Positions 1 through 26,647 of a stretch of 26,809 bases of DNA are shown piece after piece. A program made the translations under genes and the position numbers. Below the pieces are notes generated by a model. The model saw only the letters and a list, made by a program, of their open reading frames with translations, had not been told where the DNA came from and did no database searches. Source of the stretch: a bacterium BMS3Abin14 (lineage in GTDB: Bacteria; BMS3Abin14); contig BDTG01000032.1 in NCBI GenBank assembly GCA_002897695.1, positions 1-26,809 on the forward strand, read 5' to 3'. Numbering within the stretch: position 1 is the stretch's first letter; every line of letters begins with the position of its first letter.

Positions 1-252
1 CCGAAACGGCCGTCACGCAGGGGAGTCTCATCTTCTTCCTGAAAGGAATCGGCGGAGAGGACCCACCGGGAGAAGCCCCGCGGGCCGAAACGGCCGTCAC
101 GCAGGGGAGTCTCATCTTCTTCCTGAAGGGACTCGGCGGAGAGGACCCACCGGGAGAAACCCCGCGGGCCGAAACGGCCGTCACGCAGGGAAATCTCACC
201 TTCTTCCTGAAGGGAATCACTGGAAAAGATCCAGGAGACAAAACCACGTCCA
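1..252 (-). repeat. 84-bp in-frame tandem repeat, three copies
   Basis: Units start at 1, 85 and 169, an exact 84-bp period (28 codons). Units 1-84 and 85-168 differ at only three bases. The third (169-252) is much more diverged. The array encodes the repeats of the left-edge protein and probably continues beyond base 1. Confidence 0.9.
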
Positions 253-353
253 AAACGCGATTGCTCCGGAGCTACGGGATCTTTCACAGAAAGTCTTTCC
301 GAGGAGAGAACCCATCGAACAAATTGAAAGAATTTTATGGGGTTTAAACTCAT
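1..353 (-). CDS. Unrecognised 28-residue tandem-repeat protein (3' end beyond window)
   Basis: I do not recognise this protein. The frame opens at an ATG at 353-351 (MSLNPIKFFQF...) and stays open to base 1, giving about 117 residues. An AAGGAG lies 14 nt upstream, and a TTG one codon earlier is an alternative start. After a divergent first unit (FVRWVLSSERL), the protein repeats a 28-residue unit: G-F-x-x-W-[VI]-[LF]-S-[AS]-[ED]-S-[LF]-Q-E-E-x-E, then LRDGRFGPR. Each unit has a short aromatic/aliphatic patch (RWVLS), an acidic stretch and a basic Gly-Arg turn. No signal peptide or long membrane helix is visible. It follows the NrfD gene by 135 bp on the same strand, so it may work with that complex, but a candidate promoter in the gap could make it independent. 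The other two minus frames of the repeat are less protein-like, and one of them contains stops. That it is coding is fairly secure. The function is unknown. Confidence 0.7.
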   Translation of the reverse strand, partial: MSLNPIKFFQFVRWVLSSERLSVKDPVAPEQSRFGRGFVSWIFSSDSLQEEGEISLRDGRFGPRGFSRWVLSAESLQEEDETPLRDGRFGPRGFSRWVLSADSFQEEDETPLRDGRF

Positions 354-409
354 CAAGGAATTGAAGGCTCCTTAAGCTTGTTTATTACCCTGCAACGACA
401 GCGATATTG

Positions 410-488: not shown

Positions 489-1754
489 CTACTCGGAAGC
501 TGTCACCGATCCATGGACGGCCGCTGATTCGCCCACCGTTGCGACACCCCCAACGAACCTCAGCCTGCCTGTATAGATCGGGATCGCAACCTTCAGCATC
601 AGTGTATAGATGAGCGCTCCAGTCGCCCAGACCCCGAGGGCGACAAAGATCTCGGCATGGGTGGGAGAATATTCGTAAATCTCGCCCAGGGTCCCCGGGA
701 TGAAACCCGGGACGACGAGTCCCATCCCCTTCTCGATGTATACTCCTATGATAACCAGCACACACGCCATGTTCAGGGTTACCACGTTATTCCTGGCCCT
801 GGGAGAAAGGAAGAGGAAAAAGGCTATCAGGTTAAATATCAGAGCCGTCCAGAGCCATGGCACCAGAGCATTGTGCCCCTTAAGACCAAAATACAGATAT
901 TTGAGCGGCGCAAGTTCAGCGGTACCCGAATAGAACTCCTTGAACATCTCGGCGCCGAAAAGGAAGAGGTTAAACCCCATGGCGTAGGCGATCAACTCGG
1001 CAATCTTTGCAATAGCGCTGTCCTCGATCTCCAGATCGGATATCTTCCGGAGGATCTGGAAAATGATGATCATGAGCGCCGGACCGGAGCAGAAAGCTGA
1101 AGCCAGGAAACGGGGCGCAAGGATGGACGCATTCCAGAAGGGGCGCGCCGGCAGGCCATTGTAGAGAAACGCCGTTACCGTGTGGATGCTTATGGCCCAG
1201 GGTATGGAGAGGATCACCAGTGGTTTGACCACGGCCATGCTGTATTCCAGGTTGTGGGCTATACGGTACATGACATAAAAAACAACCGTCAGGTTCAAAA
1301 AGAGGTAACCGTTAAGAACCAGCACGTCCCACGCCAGAAGAGAACTTGGAAAGTTCATGGTGCCGAAGAACGGAAAAAGATGCCAGACCCTGTCGGGACG
1401 GCCGAGATCGACCATGATAAACATGATGCACATGAAGATAGCGCTAATGGCCAACATCTCGCTGAAGAGCACGATCTCCTTGATGGGTTTGAAGTTGTAG
1501 ATATATGCAGGGATGACCAGGAGCACGGCCGCGGCCGCAACGCCCACCAGAAATGTGAAGTTCGAGAGGTAGAATCCCCAGGAAACCTGATCGCGCATGG
1601 CTGTGACGATGAGGCCCTTTTCCAGCTGAACGACGTAGGTGCTCCACCCCAGGAGCATGAAGAAACCGAGGATGCCGAGCCAGATGTAATAGCCGCGGCT
1701 GCCCTTTACGATCTGCTTGAGGGCCATAAGAAAATGTTTCATTAGATCCGGCAT
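489..1754 (-). CDS. NrfD/PsrC-type integral membrane quinone-interacting subunit
   Basis: A 421-residue polytopic membrane protein with about ten hydrophobic segments. The first is YYIWLGILGFFMLLGWSTY near residue 22 and the last is near residue 385. The length and helix number fit the longer NrfD-type subunits (HybB, QrcD, ActC, DsrP-like), which exchange electrons and protons with the menaquinone pool. The start ATG (MPDLMKHF) has GAGGGGGCG about 8 nt upstream and lies 18 bp after the Fe-S gene stop. Its neighbours are a Tat-exported ferredoxin-like protein and a tetrahaem cytochrome, so electrons probably pass between quinone, Fe-S clusters and haems in the periplasm. No catalytic molybdopterin subunit is adjacent. 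The family is clear. The direction of electron flow and the partner enzyme are not. Confidence 0.9.
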   Translation of the reverse strand: MPDLMKHFLMALKQIVKGSRGYYIWLGILGFFMLLGWSTYVVQLEKGLIVTAMRDQVSWGFYLSNFTFLVGVAAAAVLLVIPAYIYNFKPIKEIVLFSEMLAISAIFMCIMFIMVDLGRPDRVWHLFPFFGTMNFPSSLLAWDVLVLNGYLFLNLTVVFYVMYRIAHNLEYSMAVVKPLVILSIPWAISIHTVTAFLYNGLPARPFWNASILAPRFLASAFCSGPALMIIIFQILRKISDLEIEDSAIAKIAELIAYAMGFNLFLFGAEMFKEFYSGTAELAPLKYLYFGLKGHNALVPWLWTALIFNLIAFFLFLSPRARNNVVTLNMACVLVIIGVYIEKGMGLVVPGFIPGTLGEIYEYSPTHAEIFVALGVWATGALIYTLMLKVAIPIYTGRLRFVGGVATVGESAAVHGSVTASE

Positions 1755-1772: not shown

Positions 1773-2705
1773 CTATGTGGCGAAGAAGTAGAAGAACTTG
1801 GGATACGTATTCAGATCCTCTTTCCACCTGAAAATGCGCTTGTTTTCAATGCAGTATCGAATCTCGCTCGCAGGATCCAGCATATTTCCGAACTTTCGCG
1901 CGCCAACCGGACAGACCTCCACGCAGGCCGGATAACGACCGGGTGTATTTCTTGTCCTCTGGATGCAAAAAGTACACTTCTCGACGATACCGTGATACCG
2001 GGGCCTGTTTCCCAGGTAATGAGTGTCCGGATTGATCTCTTTTTTAGGAATACCCGGGCTGGTCCAGTTGAAATGTCTCGCGCCATAGGGACAGGCCGCC
2101 ATGCAGTAACGGCAGCCTATGCACCAGTTGTAATCCACGACCACTATGCCATCGTCCTCTTTCCATGTGGCCTGGGTAGGGCAGGCTCGGACACAGGGAG
2201 GGTTCTCGCATTGCTGACACTGGGTAGGCATATAGAAGTATCCATCCTCCGGAACCTTGGCAGGATTATAATACTTGTCGGCGTTCTCCAGATCGTTGCC
2301 CCACTTGTCTCCCTTTTTGAACCGAAGAACCGTAATCCAGTGGATCTGCGGATCCCTTGACTGGTTGTTCTCATCGACACAGGCATACACACAACGACGG
2401 CAGCCGATACACCTGGACAGGTCAAGACCGTAACCGAACAGGACTCCCGGAAGAGCCTTGTTGGCGGAGACTTTGATATCCACATCGTATTTTTTTGCAT
2501 ATTCCCGCTCGAGTCGCTCAAGAACCTTCTTCAATTCCTTGTCGTTCATCTCACGGAAGTGCTTCTGAAAAAAGGCTTCCCAGATCGAGGCGTCAGCATC
2601 CCTGGCCGGCAAAACCAGCGCGGCGGATCCCAGGGCCACCCCTTTCAGGAAGCTCCGCCTGGCAACCTTGTGTTCCCGCTGAGAGCTGAACTCGGGTTTC
2701 TTCAT
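1773..2705 (-). CDS. Tat-exported 4x[4Fe-4S] ferredoxin-like electron-transfer subunit (HybA/NrfC/DsrO type)
   Basis: 310 residues. The N terminus has a twin-arginine signal (ARRSFLKG at residues 16-23, then a hydrophobic run ending ARDADA), so the folded, cluster-loaded protein is exported. Four cysteine groups follow in the usual HybA/NrfC order: CIGCRRCVYAC, CQQCENPPCVRAC, CIGCRYCMAAC, and CTFC paired with CVEVC 13 residues later. Each is suited to one [4Fe-4S] cluster. The gene starts 12 bp after the tetrahaem cytochrome stop and ends 18 bp before nrfD, which indicates one transcript. In related complexes (Hmc, Tmc, Dsr) this subunit wires the NrfD quinone site to a cytochrome or catalytic partner. 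The family is certain. The exact complex is not assigned. Confidence 0.93.
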   Translation of the reverse strand: MKKPEFSSQREHKVARRSFLKGVALGSAALVLPARDADASIWEAFFQKHFREMNDKELKKVLERLEREYAKKYDVDIKVSANKALPGVLFGYGLDLSRCIGCRRCVYACVDENNQSRDPQIHWITVLRFKKGDKWGNDLENADKYYNPAKVPEDGYFYMPTQCQQCENPPCVRACPTQATWKEDDGIVVVDYNWCIGCRYCMAACPYGARHFNWTSPGIPKKEINPDTHYLGNRPRYHGIVEKCTFCIQRTRNTPGRYPACVEVCPVGARKFGNMLDPASEIRYCIENKRIFRWKEDLNTYPKFFYFFAT

Positions 2706-2717
2706 GACATCTGGCCT

Positions 2718-3281
2718 CTACTTGATATCCGCCGGTTTAATGGGAGGGGGTTTTGGAGTGATAGGCTTGAACCTGGGGTTGTGCGGATTGTGGCACTGGA
2801 CACATAGACGGTAGATCTTCTTGCCGTTCCACTCCCCCGTGCGTTTCCCGTGAACGCCGGCCTTCCAATCCCTGAAAATCGTTCCATGGCACTGGCCGCA
2901 GAGATAATAGGACTCCCCGAAAGTGACCAGTTTCCCGCTTGCAAGACGCAGATAGTCCCGATCATCAGGGTTGTGGCAATCCAGACACCAACGCTGTTTT
3001 TCGGCATGGTGGATCAGTCTGATGTCCTCGTGAAATTCTGTGAGTTTACGCCTCTTGGGATTGGTCTTCATGTCGGCATGGCAGTCGGAACATGGAAAAA
3101 TACCTGGCGACAATGGTGGGGGCGTAATAAAGAGGTTCGGAATAGGCTGTTCCACCCTCCCGGCAGGCTCGGACTGGGCAACAGTTTTGCCGGAATGGGT
3201 CTTTGAGTCCGAACGGGCCGCCAGGGGCGTCATCACAAGGACCGCACCAAGAAGGACCGTCAGAACCTGAATTTTTCTCAT
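2718..3281 (-). CDS. Periplasmic tetrahaem c-type cytochrome
   Basis: 187 residues from the ATG at 3281 (MRKIQVLTV). I prefer this start because GGGAGG lies 7 nt upstream. A GTG five codons earlier overlaps that ribosome site and is unlikely. The N terminus is a Sec signal (RKIQVLTVLLGAVLVMTPLA, cleavage near AARS). Four CXXCH haem sites are visible: CSDCH, CLDCH, CGQCH and CVQCH. The spacing and the number of extra histidines suggest mostly bis-His haems. The C terminus is proline- and lysine-rich (ITPKPPPIKP). It is the first gene of the cytochrome/Fe-S/NrfD operon and is the likely haem subunit linking that membrane complex to periplasmic partners, as DsrJ or the Hmc cytochromes do. No closer family assignment is made. 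Confidence 0.88.
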   Translation of the reverse strand: MRKIQVLTVLLGAVLVMTPLAARSDSKTHSGKTVAQSEPAGRVEQPIPNLFITPPPLSPGIFPCSDCHADMKTNPKRRKLTEFHEDIRLIHHAEKQRWCLDCHNPDDRDYLRLASGKLVTFGESYYLCGQCHGTIFRDWKAGVHGKRTGEWNGKKIYRLCVQCHNPHNPRFKPITPKPPPIKPADIK

Positions 3282-3296
3282 GTGAATGCCTCCCAC

Positions 3297-3532: not shown

Positions 3533-3604
3533 TTTTGATGGACTCGCAAAAAGCATTATTTCACTTTCATCACAGATTGATGACTCCCTGCGAAGTCATC
3601 AATC
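3533..3604 (-). repeat. Hairpin repeat element at the 3' end of the membrane-protein gene
   Basis: A perfect 11-bp inverted repeat, GATTGATGACT (3575-3585) and AGTCATCAATC (3594-3604), encloses an 8-nt loop. The TGA stop of the upstream gene (3599-3601) lies inside one arm. A half-copy follows at 3533-3554, reading GCTTTTTGCGAGTCCATCAA on the minus strand. It belongs to the same family as the elements at 11687, 19271 and 20845. Confidence 0.8.
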
Positions 3605-5371
3605 TTCCACGTGGCGGTGCCACCTGCTCAGCACCGCGGACCCGATCGCGGCCGCAAGCACGAAGGACAGAACTCCCAGCACCAGAGGAATCCCCCTGGT
3701 CGCAAGCAGGTCGACAACAAAGACCTTCACCGCGCCTATGACGGTGACTCCCGCTGCCACATTTCTTATCTCGACACTCCCCCTGCGATACGCCTTGAGG
3801 AAGAGCAGGGCGGCGCCGATATTGATGATAATCGACTGAGCGCACCTGAATGCATCAGTTGGACCTCCCAAAACCCCGTAAGCAATGGCCCTGAACGCCA
3901 GGAAGGCGCTGGTCAGGGATACCAACAAAAGGATCAGGGCGCTTCGGTCCAGCCTGTCGATCCGTGAAAAAAACAGGCTGTGTAGAGGCGGCGCGACCTT
4001 CCTGGATCTGCGGTAATGGAAGAATGAAACAGCGGAAATGGAGGCCATTGCGGCAATTGTCACCACAGGCGACGCCCCCGGTGGATTTCCGGTGAGAAGG
4101 ATGAAAGAGGCGCCCATCACAGTTCCCTGGAGGAAGTAGGAAGTGACACGGATTCCCGCGCTGTCCCACGCCACCGAAAGGGAGGAAAGGCCGTAGGCGG
4201 CCAGGGAGAGGACAGCAAGGGCTATCACCGATTCGCCGGAAAGGTCCCGGAAAGAAATGGCCATGAGGAAAGCCGCCGGGAAGACCAGTGCATTGATGCC
4301 CGACGCTCCGGCCTCCCTGCGCCTCACAATGACGTAAGCCATTGTCATGAAAACGACGGCGATGAAGGTTCCGAATGCCCCTACCGCCACCATTGTGCCC
4401 ATATCGGACTGAAGGTGGAACCTTGCCAGCATATAGGCCCATGCTGAGGTCAAAGTCGGCAGTATGGAATCGAATGCCCCCAGCCGTTCCTCCTTCTTCC
4501 TCGGAATGCGGAGAAAGACGAATCCGACATAGAAGGCGGACATCACCGTCAGTGATGGAATAAACCATTCGCTGGAGTAGGGGCCTCCCAGAGCCACGCC
4601 GGTCTCCCGATATGTGAACATTTTGTAATCCCATGCCAGGTAGGAAAGCGTGGTCACCGAGAAGGCAACAACCCGGAGCCACCGGCATTTCGGCAGATCC
4701 ACAGCGGAAAAGGCAATAATATTAACCGCCAGGAGAAAGCCAGCCAGGTAAAGAAAATTGGGGCTGGGAAAATCGATGGGTATGCCCGCCGCAATTATCC
4801 CGATCGTCCCGACGCTCACCGGAATGGCCGCCCGGTACTTATGGCTGATTACCGCCATTCCACCCGCCGCTAAAATCAGCATCAGGTAGGCGGCAAGGGA
4901 TGGTATGGAACCGAAACCGGCATGGGTTTCATAGACTACGGAGAAGAGAAGGAGCCCTCCGCTGACACTGAATATGGGAGCGAAGGAATGGGATCTGGAG
5001 TACATGATCAACCCGGTTCCCTCAAGGAGTGATGCGTATAGAACCCCGAGGATGGACCCGAGGGTGACCCCGACCATCCCGTTATCCGTCAGTGTTCTCA
5101 GGAGAAGGGCGAAAAGGAGAATAATGCTGACGGCTGTAAACCGCGACAGTATGGCGGCCATCCCACCTGTCGTCAGCCCTCCCGGCTTCGGCGCAAAAGC
5201 TGTTCCTTCCGCCGATATCACGGTGGATGCGGCGCCGGGTTCGTCTCCCCTTCGCACCGCCGGAGAGACTTCTATCATTTTTTCAATGGCGTCGACCCTT
5301 CCGGTCAGCGCCTCCACCTCCCGCGAAAGTTTTTCGATCCTGCCGGAAAGCCCCTTCACGTCGTCAGACAT
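3599..5371 (-). CDS. Polytopic membrane protein with N-terminal coiled coil, DUF2339-like
   Basis: 590 residues. Residues 1-35 form a charged heptad-patterned coiled coil (LSGRIEKLSREVEALTGRVD). After a linker come about 14-16 hydrophobic segments from residue 70 to near the C terminus (for example SIILLFALLLRTLTDNGMVG and ILSFVLAAAIGSAVL). This plan, a short coiled coil and then a long run of helices with little soluble domain, resembles DUF2339 predicted membrane proteins, but I cannot confirm the match. The start is supported by GAGGGGAG about 5 nt upstream. It begins 50 bp after the 13-haem cytochrome gene and is probably co-transcribed. No catalytic motif is visible, so no function is assigned. 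The gene ends inside a hairpin repeat. Confidence 0.8.
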   Translation of the reverse strand: MSDDVKGLSGRIEKLSREVEALTGRVDAIEKMIEVSPAVRRGDEPGAASTVISAEGTAFAPKPGGLTTGGMAAILSRFTAVSIILLFALLLRTLTDNGMVGVTLGSILGVLYASLLEGTGLIMYSRSHSFAPIFSVSGGLLLFSVVYETHAGFGSIPSLAAYLMLILAAGGMAVISHKYRAAIPVSVGTIGIIAAGIPIDFPSPNFLYLAGFLLAVNIIAFSAVDLPKCRWLRVVAFSVTTLSYLAWDYKMFTYRETGVALGGPYSSEWFIPSLTVMSAFYVGFVFLRIPRKKEERLGAFDSILPTLTSAWAYMLARFHLQSDMGTMVAVGAFGTFIAVVFMTMAYVIVRRREAGASGINALVFPAAFLMAISFRDLSGESVIALAVLSLAAYGLSSLSVAWDSAGIRVTSYFLQGTVMGASFILLTGNPPGASPVVTIAAMASISAVSFFHYRRSRKVAPPLHSLFFSRIDRLDRSALILLLVSLTSAFLAFRAIAYGVLGGPTDAFRCAQSIIINIGAALLFLKAYRRGSVEIRNVAAGVTVIGAVKVFVVDLLATRGIPLVLGVLSFVLAAAIGSAVLSRWHRHVED

Positions 5372-24800: not shown

Positions 24801-26138
24801 TTATTCAATGTCCTGCTTGTACCTCTCCCTGTAGTACTCCCTGACCTTCTCCAACCGCTTCTTGTCGAACCCCTTGATGTACCACTCATGCCTGGGATCG
24901 CCCTCAATGTACTTTTTCTGGATTGCCTCGTAGACCTCGGGCTTTCCGGCCTCTTCCGACAGCCTCTTGGCGGTGGGAAGAAATTCCGTGTAGAAGTGCT
25001 TCGCAACCTCATAAAGACCGTGCCACCAGGTGTAGTCAGGTCCGGACATGGCCGCTCCGTGCCTGGCACGCCTGCCCTCATGGTGCCAGAGCTCCCAGTA
25101 GATCCAGTCGATTTCATCGTCGAAGTTGCCCTTGCTGATAATACCCTCTTTAATGAGAATGGAACGGATCTCAGTGGCCGGGATCGCGAATTTCGTATTG
25201 TACAACTCCACGAACTCATCAAGCTGCTTGTAGAAACCACTGACAAAATCCGGTGCGTGACAGGCCGTGCAGACTTCCTTCATGGCCTCCCTCTTAACCT
25301 CCCAGTTATCCTTCTTTTTGGAGATGGGGGAGCGAAGGTTCCAGCTCAGACGCTTTCCAACGTCGTGGGTTACGCCTTCCTCACCCGCAGCGCCCATGTG
25401 GCACGAAGCACACGTGGGAGCATCAGAGTAATCCTCCCCCGCGACCCACTTGGGCCGGTCGAGGTTAAGTTCATCCGTAAACGCCTTGTAGAGAATACCG
25501 TGCTTGGACTCCTCGTAAACCTCTTTCTGCGGGTGGTCGGGACCGAGGTGGCATTTGCCACAGACATCGGGCCTTCTCGCCTGCGCCTTGCTGAAACGAT
25601 GCCGGGTGTGGCACGCCGAACACGATCCCTTCGATCCGTCCGGGTTAACCCGTCCGATCCCGGTATTGGGCCAGGTAGCGGGGTTAAGGGTACCGTCGTC
25701 GTTCACCTGCACCAGGGAACCGTGACACTGCCCGCATCCGGCGGCCACTGCGGGTTCTCCCCCCAGAGTCTGGCCAAGAAGGGCATCCGCCGAGTTCAGG
25801 ATATCTCCTGCCGCGGCATGGTGGCTGGCCTGCTGTTCGGCGCTCTCGACGGGGTGACACTTTCCACAGTCCTTCGGCGTAACAAGGATGGCGATAGTAA
25901 AACCGTTATGGTCCATGGCATCCTTATCGTCCTTATCCGCCTTGTGACATTCATAGCATCCCACCCCGGCTTCCCAATGGGCGCTCTTACTCCACTGCAT
26001 GATGATGGCCGGCATGGCGGTGCTGTGGCAATCCAGGCAGTCCTGTGTCTCGGATGAAAATTTCTCCCCGGCCCTGCTCTGTATCGGCACTGCGAACACA
26101 AACAGCGTCAGCAGAACGAAAAACAATCCCCTTTTCAT
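24801..26138 (-). CDS. Octahaem cytochrome c of the hydroxylamine oxidoreductase (HAO) family
   Basis: 445 residues from the ATG at 26138 (MKRGLFFVLL). GGAGGG lies 6 nt before it. The longer open frame adds 24 residues that hide the signal peptide. A Sec signal ends near QSRAG, so the protein is periplasmic. Eight CXXCH sites follow: CLDCH, CYECH, CGKCH, CGQCH, CSACH, CGKCH, CASCH and CTACH. The C-terminal helical half contains RHGAAMSGPDYTWWHGLYEV, typical of HAO-like proteins. Members either oxidise hydroxylamine or hydrazine, or reduce nitrite or hydroxylamine. Which applies depends on a tyrosine cross-link to the active-site haem, which I cannot settle from this sequence. No partner cytochrome gene is adjacent. 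Its own transcription unit is likely. Confidence 0.88.
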   Translation of the reverse strand: MKRGLFFVLLTLFVFAVPIQSRAGEKFSSETQDCLDCHSTAMPAIIMQWSKSAHWEAGVGCYECHKADKDDKDAMDHNGFTIAILVTPKDCGKCHPVESAEQQASHHAAAGDILNSADALLGQTLGGEPAVAAGCGQCHGSLVQVNDDGTLNPATWPNTGIGRVNPDGSKGSCSACHTRHRFSKAQARRPDVCGKCHLGPDHPQKEVYEESKHGILYKAFTDELNLDRPKWVAGEDYSDAPTCASCHMGAAGEEGVTHDVGKRLSWNLRSPISKKKDNWEVKREAMKEVCTACHAPDFVSGFYKQLDEFVELYNTKFAIPATEIRSILIKEGIISKGNFDDEIDWIYWELWHHEGRRARHGAAMSGPDYTWWHGLYEVAKHFYTEFLPTAKRLSEEAGKPEVYEAIQKKYIEGDPRHEWYIKGFDKKRLEKVREYYRERYKQDIE

Positions 26139-26348
26139 GGAATCCCTCCTCTGGAAAAGGCTCGTGATGAAGCTCCAAACCCAGAGCTTCTCTAAAAAAA
26201 TCCCCACCAAGTCTTGTTAGTTATATCACAGATTCGATGGACGGATTCGACCCGGGTCAAAAAACAGGGTCTGGGATAACCCCACCCCTGTCTCTGACAC
26301 CTTTTTCTCTCCCGTTAAAGTTGGCACGGATCGTGATAGTAAAGGGGC
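26139..26348 (-). promoter_or_regulatory. Upstream region of the octahaem cytochrome, with hairpin and palindrome
   Basis: A 210-bp gap to the divergent RAYT remnant. It holds a 7-bp hairpin, GAAGCTC/GAGCTTC (26169-26190), in the presumed leader. A 10-bp perfect palindrome, GACCCGGGTC (26249-26258), about 110 bp before the ATG could be an operator. The best promoter guess on the minus strand is TTGACC-17-TCGAAT overlapping that palindrome, which is weak. The stretch near 26262-26300 (an imperfect ACAGGG...CCCTGT repeat) may be the REP-like end of the RAYT element. Confidence 0.3.
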
Positions 26349-26528
26349 ATGGGAAGACCACTTCGTATACTGCAGACCGAATATCCGTACCACCTGACCT
26401 GTCGCACAAACAACAGAACCTTCAGGTTCCATCAACGACAGTTCACAAAACTGTTCTTCAGGGCTGTCGTGCAAAGTACTAAAAAATATAACTTTCTCGT
26501 CCATCACATCGTCCTTATGAACAACCAC
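26349..26528 (+). pseudogene. REP-associated tyrosine transposase (RAYT, Y1_Tnp), truncated
   Basis: About 60 codons remain. The start MGRPLRILQTEYPYHLTCRT is the classic RAYT N terminus. The next block ends HHIVLMNNH, where an intact protein continues as NHYH or NHFH to complete the HUH metal site. Here the frame instead enters the end of an IS21-type element (C-V-F-R-G-K...) and stops at 26601-26603. The catalytic tyrosine half is absent. A purine-rich AAAGGGG precedes the ATG. The remnant is divergent from the octahaem cytochrome. No function is expected. Confidence 0.8.
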
Positions 26529-26543
26529 TGCGTATTCCGGGGC

Positions 26544-26647
26544 AAACTGTCCACCGATTCCGACGCAAACTGTCCACCCATTCCGATCCAAACTGTCCAC
26601 TGATTCCGACGCAAACTGTCCACCGATTCCGACGGCAAACTGTCCAC
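26544..26647 (+). repeat. Five tandem 23-bp terminal repeats of the IS21-family element
   Basis: The core AAACTGTCCAC begins at 26544, 26567, 26590, 26613 and 26637, spacings of 23, 23, 23 and 24 bp. The intervening text is mostly CGATTCCGACGC. Multiple subterminal repeats serving as transposase-binding sites are a known IS21-family trait. Confidence 0.9.

Follow-up and report, generated by a model that had tools for sequence, protein, structure and literature searches.

NrfD-type complexes are major electron entry and exit points in anaerobic respiration. Among the described systems, Cbc4 (CbcSTU) of Geobacter and related enzymes are NrfD/Fe-S/cytochrome quinol-cytochrome c oxidoreductases (PMC11434368; NrfD review PMC8076601), and they share three parts with the module that carries REP, the name used here for a 28-residue repeat protein. 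Unlike for the REP-bearing module, a repeat subunit of Cbc4 is not mentioned in the available portions of these two sources, and in those of the review, published in 2021, neither a repeat subunit nor the words "accessory" and "cytoplasmic" occur. The second system is DsrMKJOP, whose DsrJOP part has DsrP, DsrO-like, and DsrJ-position counterparts in the module upstream of REP; dsrM and dsrK were not recognized beside that module, and REP does not follow it across genomes. A further likeness, which concerns the mode only and implies no sequence relation, is that to CsoS2-like disordered scaffolds, which, in the available portions of PMC11365436 and PMC11481516, appear to combine several short motifs, poorly conserved linkers, and low predicted order, as REP does; REP is much shorter and is tied to a membrane redox complex.

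The DNA analyzed, referred to as the window, comprises 26,809 nucleotides and is contig C32 of a 2.28-Mb genome in 49 contigs (G000). Its features and those of contig C30 of the same genome are listed in Table 1.

Table 1. Features of the REP locus in the window and on contig C30 (L003 coordinates)
Feature	Position	Strand	Basis or remark
REP gene, 5' part	3..356	-	118 of its codons lie in the window; the frame extends to its stop on G000:C30 (L003:1-371)
N-terminal unit (NPIKFFQFVRWVLSSERLSVKD)	258..335	-	More basic, predicted helix; unit profile
Repeat unit RFGRGFVSWIFSSDSLQEEGEISLRDG	177..257	-	Unit profile, E 9.6e-13 (profile built from these same REP units)
Repeat unit RFGPRGFSRWVLSAESLQEEDETPLRDG	93..176	-	Unit profile
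Repeat unit RFGPRGFSRWVLSADSFQEEDETPLRDG	9..92	-	Unit profile and contig overlap; array continues into C30
DsrP-type NrfD membrane subunit (first module)	489..1754	-	NCBIfam NF045798, 433 bits (cut-off 350)
DsrO-like Fe-S subunit (first module)	1773..2705	-	NCBIfam NF045797, 180.5 bits (just under cut-off 200)
DsrJ-position multiheme cytochrome c (first module)	2718..3296	-	Pfam PF09699/PF14522
DUF2339 membrane protein, recurrent neighbor	3599..5371	-	Pfam PF10101
Tetraheme cytochrome (second module, C30)	L003:428-940		
TtrB-like Fe-S subunit (second module, C30)	L003:986-1777		

The REP gene and its repeat units

REP is encoded by a single minus-strand open frame with a TTG/ATG start, preceded by an AAGGAG-like site. 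The frame begins with the N-terminal unit (NPIKFFQFVRWVLSSERL...), followed by repeat units, the last of which is cut by the window edge. Comparison of contigs revealed that the start of C30 (3260 bases) is the exact reverse complement of window positions 1 to 124 (124-nt overlap, 0 mismatches). There is no stop just beyond base 1; the frame runs on through the overlap and encodes three further divergent units before the stop at L003:369-371. The joined REP has about 200 amino acids in seven 28-residue units, and an additional domain is absent. Because the assembly breaks inside the near-identical 84-nt array, the unit count of this genome is uncertain, and seven is to be read as a minimum or an estimate. 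The join itself is supported because the sister genome G001 carries the complete gene on one contig (203 aa, 7 units) with an identical layout. The frame in the window belongs to a genuine gene, of which it forms the 5' part. The original prediction had described this minus-strand frame and its repeat, named leftward extension to the C terminus as a check, and listed a stop or frameshift just beyond base 1 as evidence against it; the frame and the repeat were confirmed, and the extension spoke in its favor. Its description of the units as near-identical holds for the 84-nt units at positions 1 to 84 and 85 to 168 (96% DNA identity) but not for that at 169 to 252 (74%). No convincing additional copies of the unit were detected elsewhere in the genome.

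As the unit length of 84 nt is divisible by 3, the plus strand is open across the array as well: two frames of 120 and 114 aa lie within positions 1 to 364 and might be mistaken for genes. In relatives, tracing was confined to the minus frame, which is under purifying selection there.

The units in the window follow the pattern RFG..GF..W[VI][LF]S.[ED].[LF]QEE. Alignment within the family showed that F, W, [LF], S, [ED], L, and E are fixed in position, and the remainder of the unit drifts. Of 37 distances between units in the family, 34 are 28 residues; elsewhere the spacing ranges from 23 to 31 residues. REP is present in 9 of the 12 genomes of the source phylum, all of which belong to one family; the three genomes without it are 71 to 80% complete. 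The number of units varies, with seven in G000, G001, G002, and G003, six in G004, G009, and G011, four in G008, and three in G005. Pairwise dN/dS was 0.10 to 0.56 for REP versus 0.05 to 0.31 for the neighboring cytochrome, and the ratios are rough for pairs inside the window's own family, which are near synonymous saturation. Judged by these ratios, REP is constrained but evolves faster than the neighboring cytochrome. Values below 1 in relatives speak against equal rates of synonymous and nonsynonymous change, which the original prediction had listed among the observations that would refute it.

Searches with the REP of the window against Pfam, NCBIfam, PHROGs, and PDB yielded nothing above cut-off, and no family in Pfam-A or NCBIfam passed the curated cut-off with any of 19 diverse REP members. 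The best Pfam match among the 19 was Toprim_C_rpt (20.6 bits; cut-off, 22.3); this identity was rejected since the match covers 14 residues, lies below the cut-off, and concerns 1 of the 19 members. The best NCBIfam match had an E value of 0.025, and REP profile A10 had no match in PDB up to an E value of 1. CpcN, a phycobilisome linker (8imn) found in a single-sequence PDB search, was rejected as a chance match consisting of fragments with i-Evalues of 38 to 2300. The earlier statement that the unit belongs to no recognized family was thereby borne out for these four databases. A description of REP was not found in the set of open-access papers searched.

Locus layout and the partner module

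The gene order in the family is multiheme cytochrome, DUF2339, DsrJ-position cytochrome, DsrO-like, DsrP, REP, cyt4, TtrB-like Fe-S, and NrfD, where cyt4 denotes the membrane-anchored tetraheme cytochrome c adjoining REP. REP is thus flanked by two modules with an NrfD-type subunit. The DsrP-type nrfD gene of the first module ends 133 nt upstream of REP. The second module, located on C30, has a layout resembling that of Cbc4/NrfBCD: a multiheme cytochrome c, an Fe-S subunit with 4Fe-4S motifs, and an NrfD-type integral membrane subunit are encoded adjacently. The NrfD protein of this module matched PF03916 (E 1.1e-41); against the cyt_nit_nrfD model it reached 61 bits, well short of the cut-off of 347.6. 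The TtrB-like subunit has a twin-arginine-like N terminus, as judged from its sequence.

Analysis of related loci distinguished between the two modules. The cyt4 gene is located directly downstream of REP in all nine REP-containing genomes of the family. In G005 and G008 the DsrJOP-like genes are missing at the locus, and REP is retained just before cyt4. In G319 (L124) both modules and DUF2339 are present in unchanged order, leaving no room for REP. A tie of REP to the DsrP-type module of the window was therefore rejected, because REP stays without this module and is absent with it. The partner of REP is the downstream module on C30 (tetraheme cytochrome, TtrB-like subunit, and NrfD). The original prediction had linked the repeat protein to the nrfD-type gene that precedes it; the link to a quinone-linked NrfD complex stood, and extends over several phyla, but the partner is the second module and not the preceding DsrP-type gene.

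Further observations concern the surroundings of REP. DUF2339 homologues adjoin the module in L060, L061, L100, L101, L103, and L124. The REP-less locus L124 (G319:C12:32000-41000) keeps the order DsrJ-position cytochrome, DsrO, DsrP, tetraheme-type cytochrome, TtrB-like, NrfD, and DUF2339; since this double-module order is conserved in another lineage without REP, a joint function of the two NrfD modules is conceivable. Positions 24801 to 26210 of the window (minus strand) encode a multiheme cytochrome containing a Multi-haem_cyto domain (PF13447), possibly a second respiratory gene of the window. Positions 26226 to 26600 are near-identical to the end of C30 (L003:3050-3260), and the plus frame there reads MGRPLRILQTEYPYHLTCRTNNR..., which we take to resemble the start of a Y1/RAYT-type transposase; a 45-aa piece of this frame had no Pfam match. 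Adjoining this transposase-like remnant, about five copies of a tandem 23-nt unit (ATTCCGACGCAAACTGTCCACCG) occupy positions 26534 to 26647.

Association of REP with one clade of complexes

A whole-family REP alignment was dropped as the query for scanning genomes, as no stretch was conserved enough, and the cytochrome was used instead. The cyt4 scan, which covered named genomes, revealed relatives in Hydrogenedentota and in a metagenome-assembled genome (MAG) of Acidobacteria, where in each case a small ORF with the repeated core of REP is located immediately upstream of cyt4; the spacing of its repeats is not strictly 28 residues, and overall identity is low. Distant REPs directly upstream of a tetraheme cytochrome/TtrB-like/NrfD module were also found in several further phyla. 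The core shared by all these distant REPs, F..W[LI][LF]..E.L[PE], occurs in two to seven copies. In a search of 386 genomes with an NrfD profile, a high-scoring group (at least 600 bits) was separated from the rest (below 500 bits). The upstream sequence was read for 26 loci of the NrfD search and for further loci from other phyla found with the cyt4 profile. By a two-motif rule, REP was present beside cyt4 in almost all loci of the high group and in none of the others; among other ORF segments of similar size, 9 of 2383 passed the rule. REPs missed by the rule were assigned by eye in L038 and L042, both of which have a larger gap, in L105, which the REP profile recovered as well, and in L147; in L165 to L172 REP was read by eye only.

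A tree of the TtrB-like subunits placed all REP-containing loci in one clade (support, 97/89). Every readable locus of this clade carries REP (L103 and L146 were unreadable, as their contigs end), and about 20 loci outside the clade, including G319 (L124), lack it. REP-bearing complexes thus form a clade of their own among the sampled loci, a set without Geobacter sequences. L147, the sole row of the clade first marked as lacking REP, contains two REP units in frame with the cytochrome N terminus (about 1172 to 1369). This locus is a possible natural REP-cytochrome fusion, seen in one MAG only, and the cytochrome retains its own start-like site.

A REP profile built from 19 REPs was searched against the 386 genomes. 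It matched 14 genomes at an E value of <1e-3, and all 14 possess the module and carry the match at its locus; the next match (E 0.006) contains stops. G036, G098, G296, G000, G002, G004, and G008 had contributed to the profile, and G186, G287, G001, G003, G005, G009, and G011 had not. Among the 386 genomes, 14 had both REP and module, none had REP only, and one had the module only, on a cut contig (Fisher's exact P about 1e-24, with genomes of one family not being independent); the sensitivity of the profile is limited for very short members. The original prediction had proposed a profile search for the unit near NrfD/Fe-S/cytochrome genes and had named homologues lacking any NrfD tie as counterevidence; the matches lay at the module in every case. 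The association of REP with the module clade is well supported. As REP stands beside one branch of quinone-linked electron-transfer complexes in several distant bacterial groups, it probably belongs to these complexes as a component that has been overlooked.

The strict tie to the module, and the position of REP as the first gene directly before the cytochrome, with its stop overlapping or abutting the cytochrome start in many loci, would also suit an assembly or maturation factor. Such a factor would bind the cytoplasmic tail of the cytochrome or the unfolded or Tat-exported Fe-S subunit, for which the twin-arginine-like N terminus of the TtrB-like protein speaks, and would be absent from the finished complex. 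We consider this rather unlikely, because the two to seven copies and the lineage-specific duplication of units are more readily explained by a multivalent role than by a chaperone acting one-to-one, and no chaperone family matched in Pfam or NCBIfam.

Predicted structure, cellular side, and proposed role

No signal peptide was recognized in REP by eye, and no hydrophobic stretch of transmembrane length was detected (19-residue maximum, 0.33 to 1.25). The AlphaFold2 model of the homologue from L054 predicted a short helix at each F..WLL block, low-confidence linkers, and no packed fold (mean pLDDT 58.6, pTM 0.19, low values also being expected from the shallow alignment). The predicted N-terminal helix (residues 6 to 17) was longer and more confident (pLDDT about 75). 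A single-sequence run was uninformative (pLDDT 40.8). The modeling suggests that REP is disordered and, like CsoS2-like scaffolds, has repeated short motifs in low-order sequence.

The partner cytochrome has a short basic tail, one transmembrane helix, and then four CxxCH motifs. According to the positive-inside rule, a basic tail places the N terminus of the cytochrome in the cytoplasm, and the fusion in L147, if real, would place REP on the same side. We infer from these sequences that REP is cytoplasmic. In REP-containing loci the tail nearly always reads H.[KR]H..R, with S replacing the first H in a few f162 genomes, and it is mostly different in loci without REP, where the cytochrome of L111 (MKNARHVLR) is similar. 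The cyt4 scan included the pattern MEH[TS]KHLW, so the invariance of the tail in the loci that it found owes something to this selection; the search based on NrfD does not carry such a bias. Co-occurrence of tail motif and REP could come from shared ancestry alone. A clade-specific cytoplasmic loop of NrfD as docking site was rejected, as no insertion was found, only scattered clade-specific residues.

The original prediction had suggested that REP is perhaps attached to the membrane through its aromatic patches. A peripheral protein of this kind, whose N-terminal helix and aromatic patches insert in the inner leaflet and keep it near the complex, would account for the more basic, predicted helical N-terminal unit and for the F, W, and L residues in every unit. 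It is, however, quite improbable: the acidic flanks of the internal units (D/E at +5 and E at +10 in the family) would be unfavorable for anionic lipid, and a stretch of transmembrane length is absent. Membrane attachment was not borne out, and the motif could equally bind protein.

The proposal that we favor, to which we assign an even chance, is that REP is a cytoplasmic multivalent motif protein that binds the complex and holds several copies together. REP would stay in the cytoplasm and serve a single clade of complexes as their dedicated accessory protein; these complexes comprise a tetraheme cytochrome c anchored in the membrane, a TtrB-like Fe-S subunit, and an NrfD quinone subunit. The N-terminal helix and the two to seven motifs on poorly conserved linkers would form a multivalent chain, in which each motif may dock as a short helix on the cytoplasmic face of the complex. 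The docking surface could be the H.[KR]H..R tail of the cytochrome, NrfD, or a shared partner, and the chain would thereby tie several copies of the complex together. A variable number of units combined with a conserved motif is as expected of a multivalent tether, and the helix predicted for each motif is consistent with short binding motifs strung along a chain. A fully flexible linker would not be expected to show the strict 28-residue spacing. Repeated capture of one partner would also account for the many copies of a short conserved motif on variable linkers; REP would then be an adaptor that brings a soluble enzyme or regulator of the cytoplasm to the complex rather than linking complexes. 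This reading is unlikely, since no third gene accompanies REP in all loci, and DUF2339, which is frequent, also occurs with modules lacking REP. Broadening the tether proposal, we suggest, tentatively and with some doubt, that a wide, undescribed class of cytoplasmic multivalent motif proteins clusters membrane quinol-cytochrome c complexes, with a valence set by tandem duplication of the 84-nt unit.

That a small and rapidly evolving repeat protein has been retained next to one clade of complexes in distant phyla suggests that a component of these complexes has been missed. If REP tethers complexes, it would provide bacteria with a simple, genetically tunable grouping of respiratory enzymes, and the unit counts offer a direct handle on this idea.
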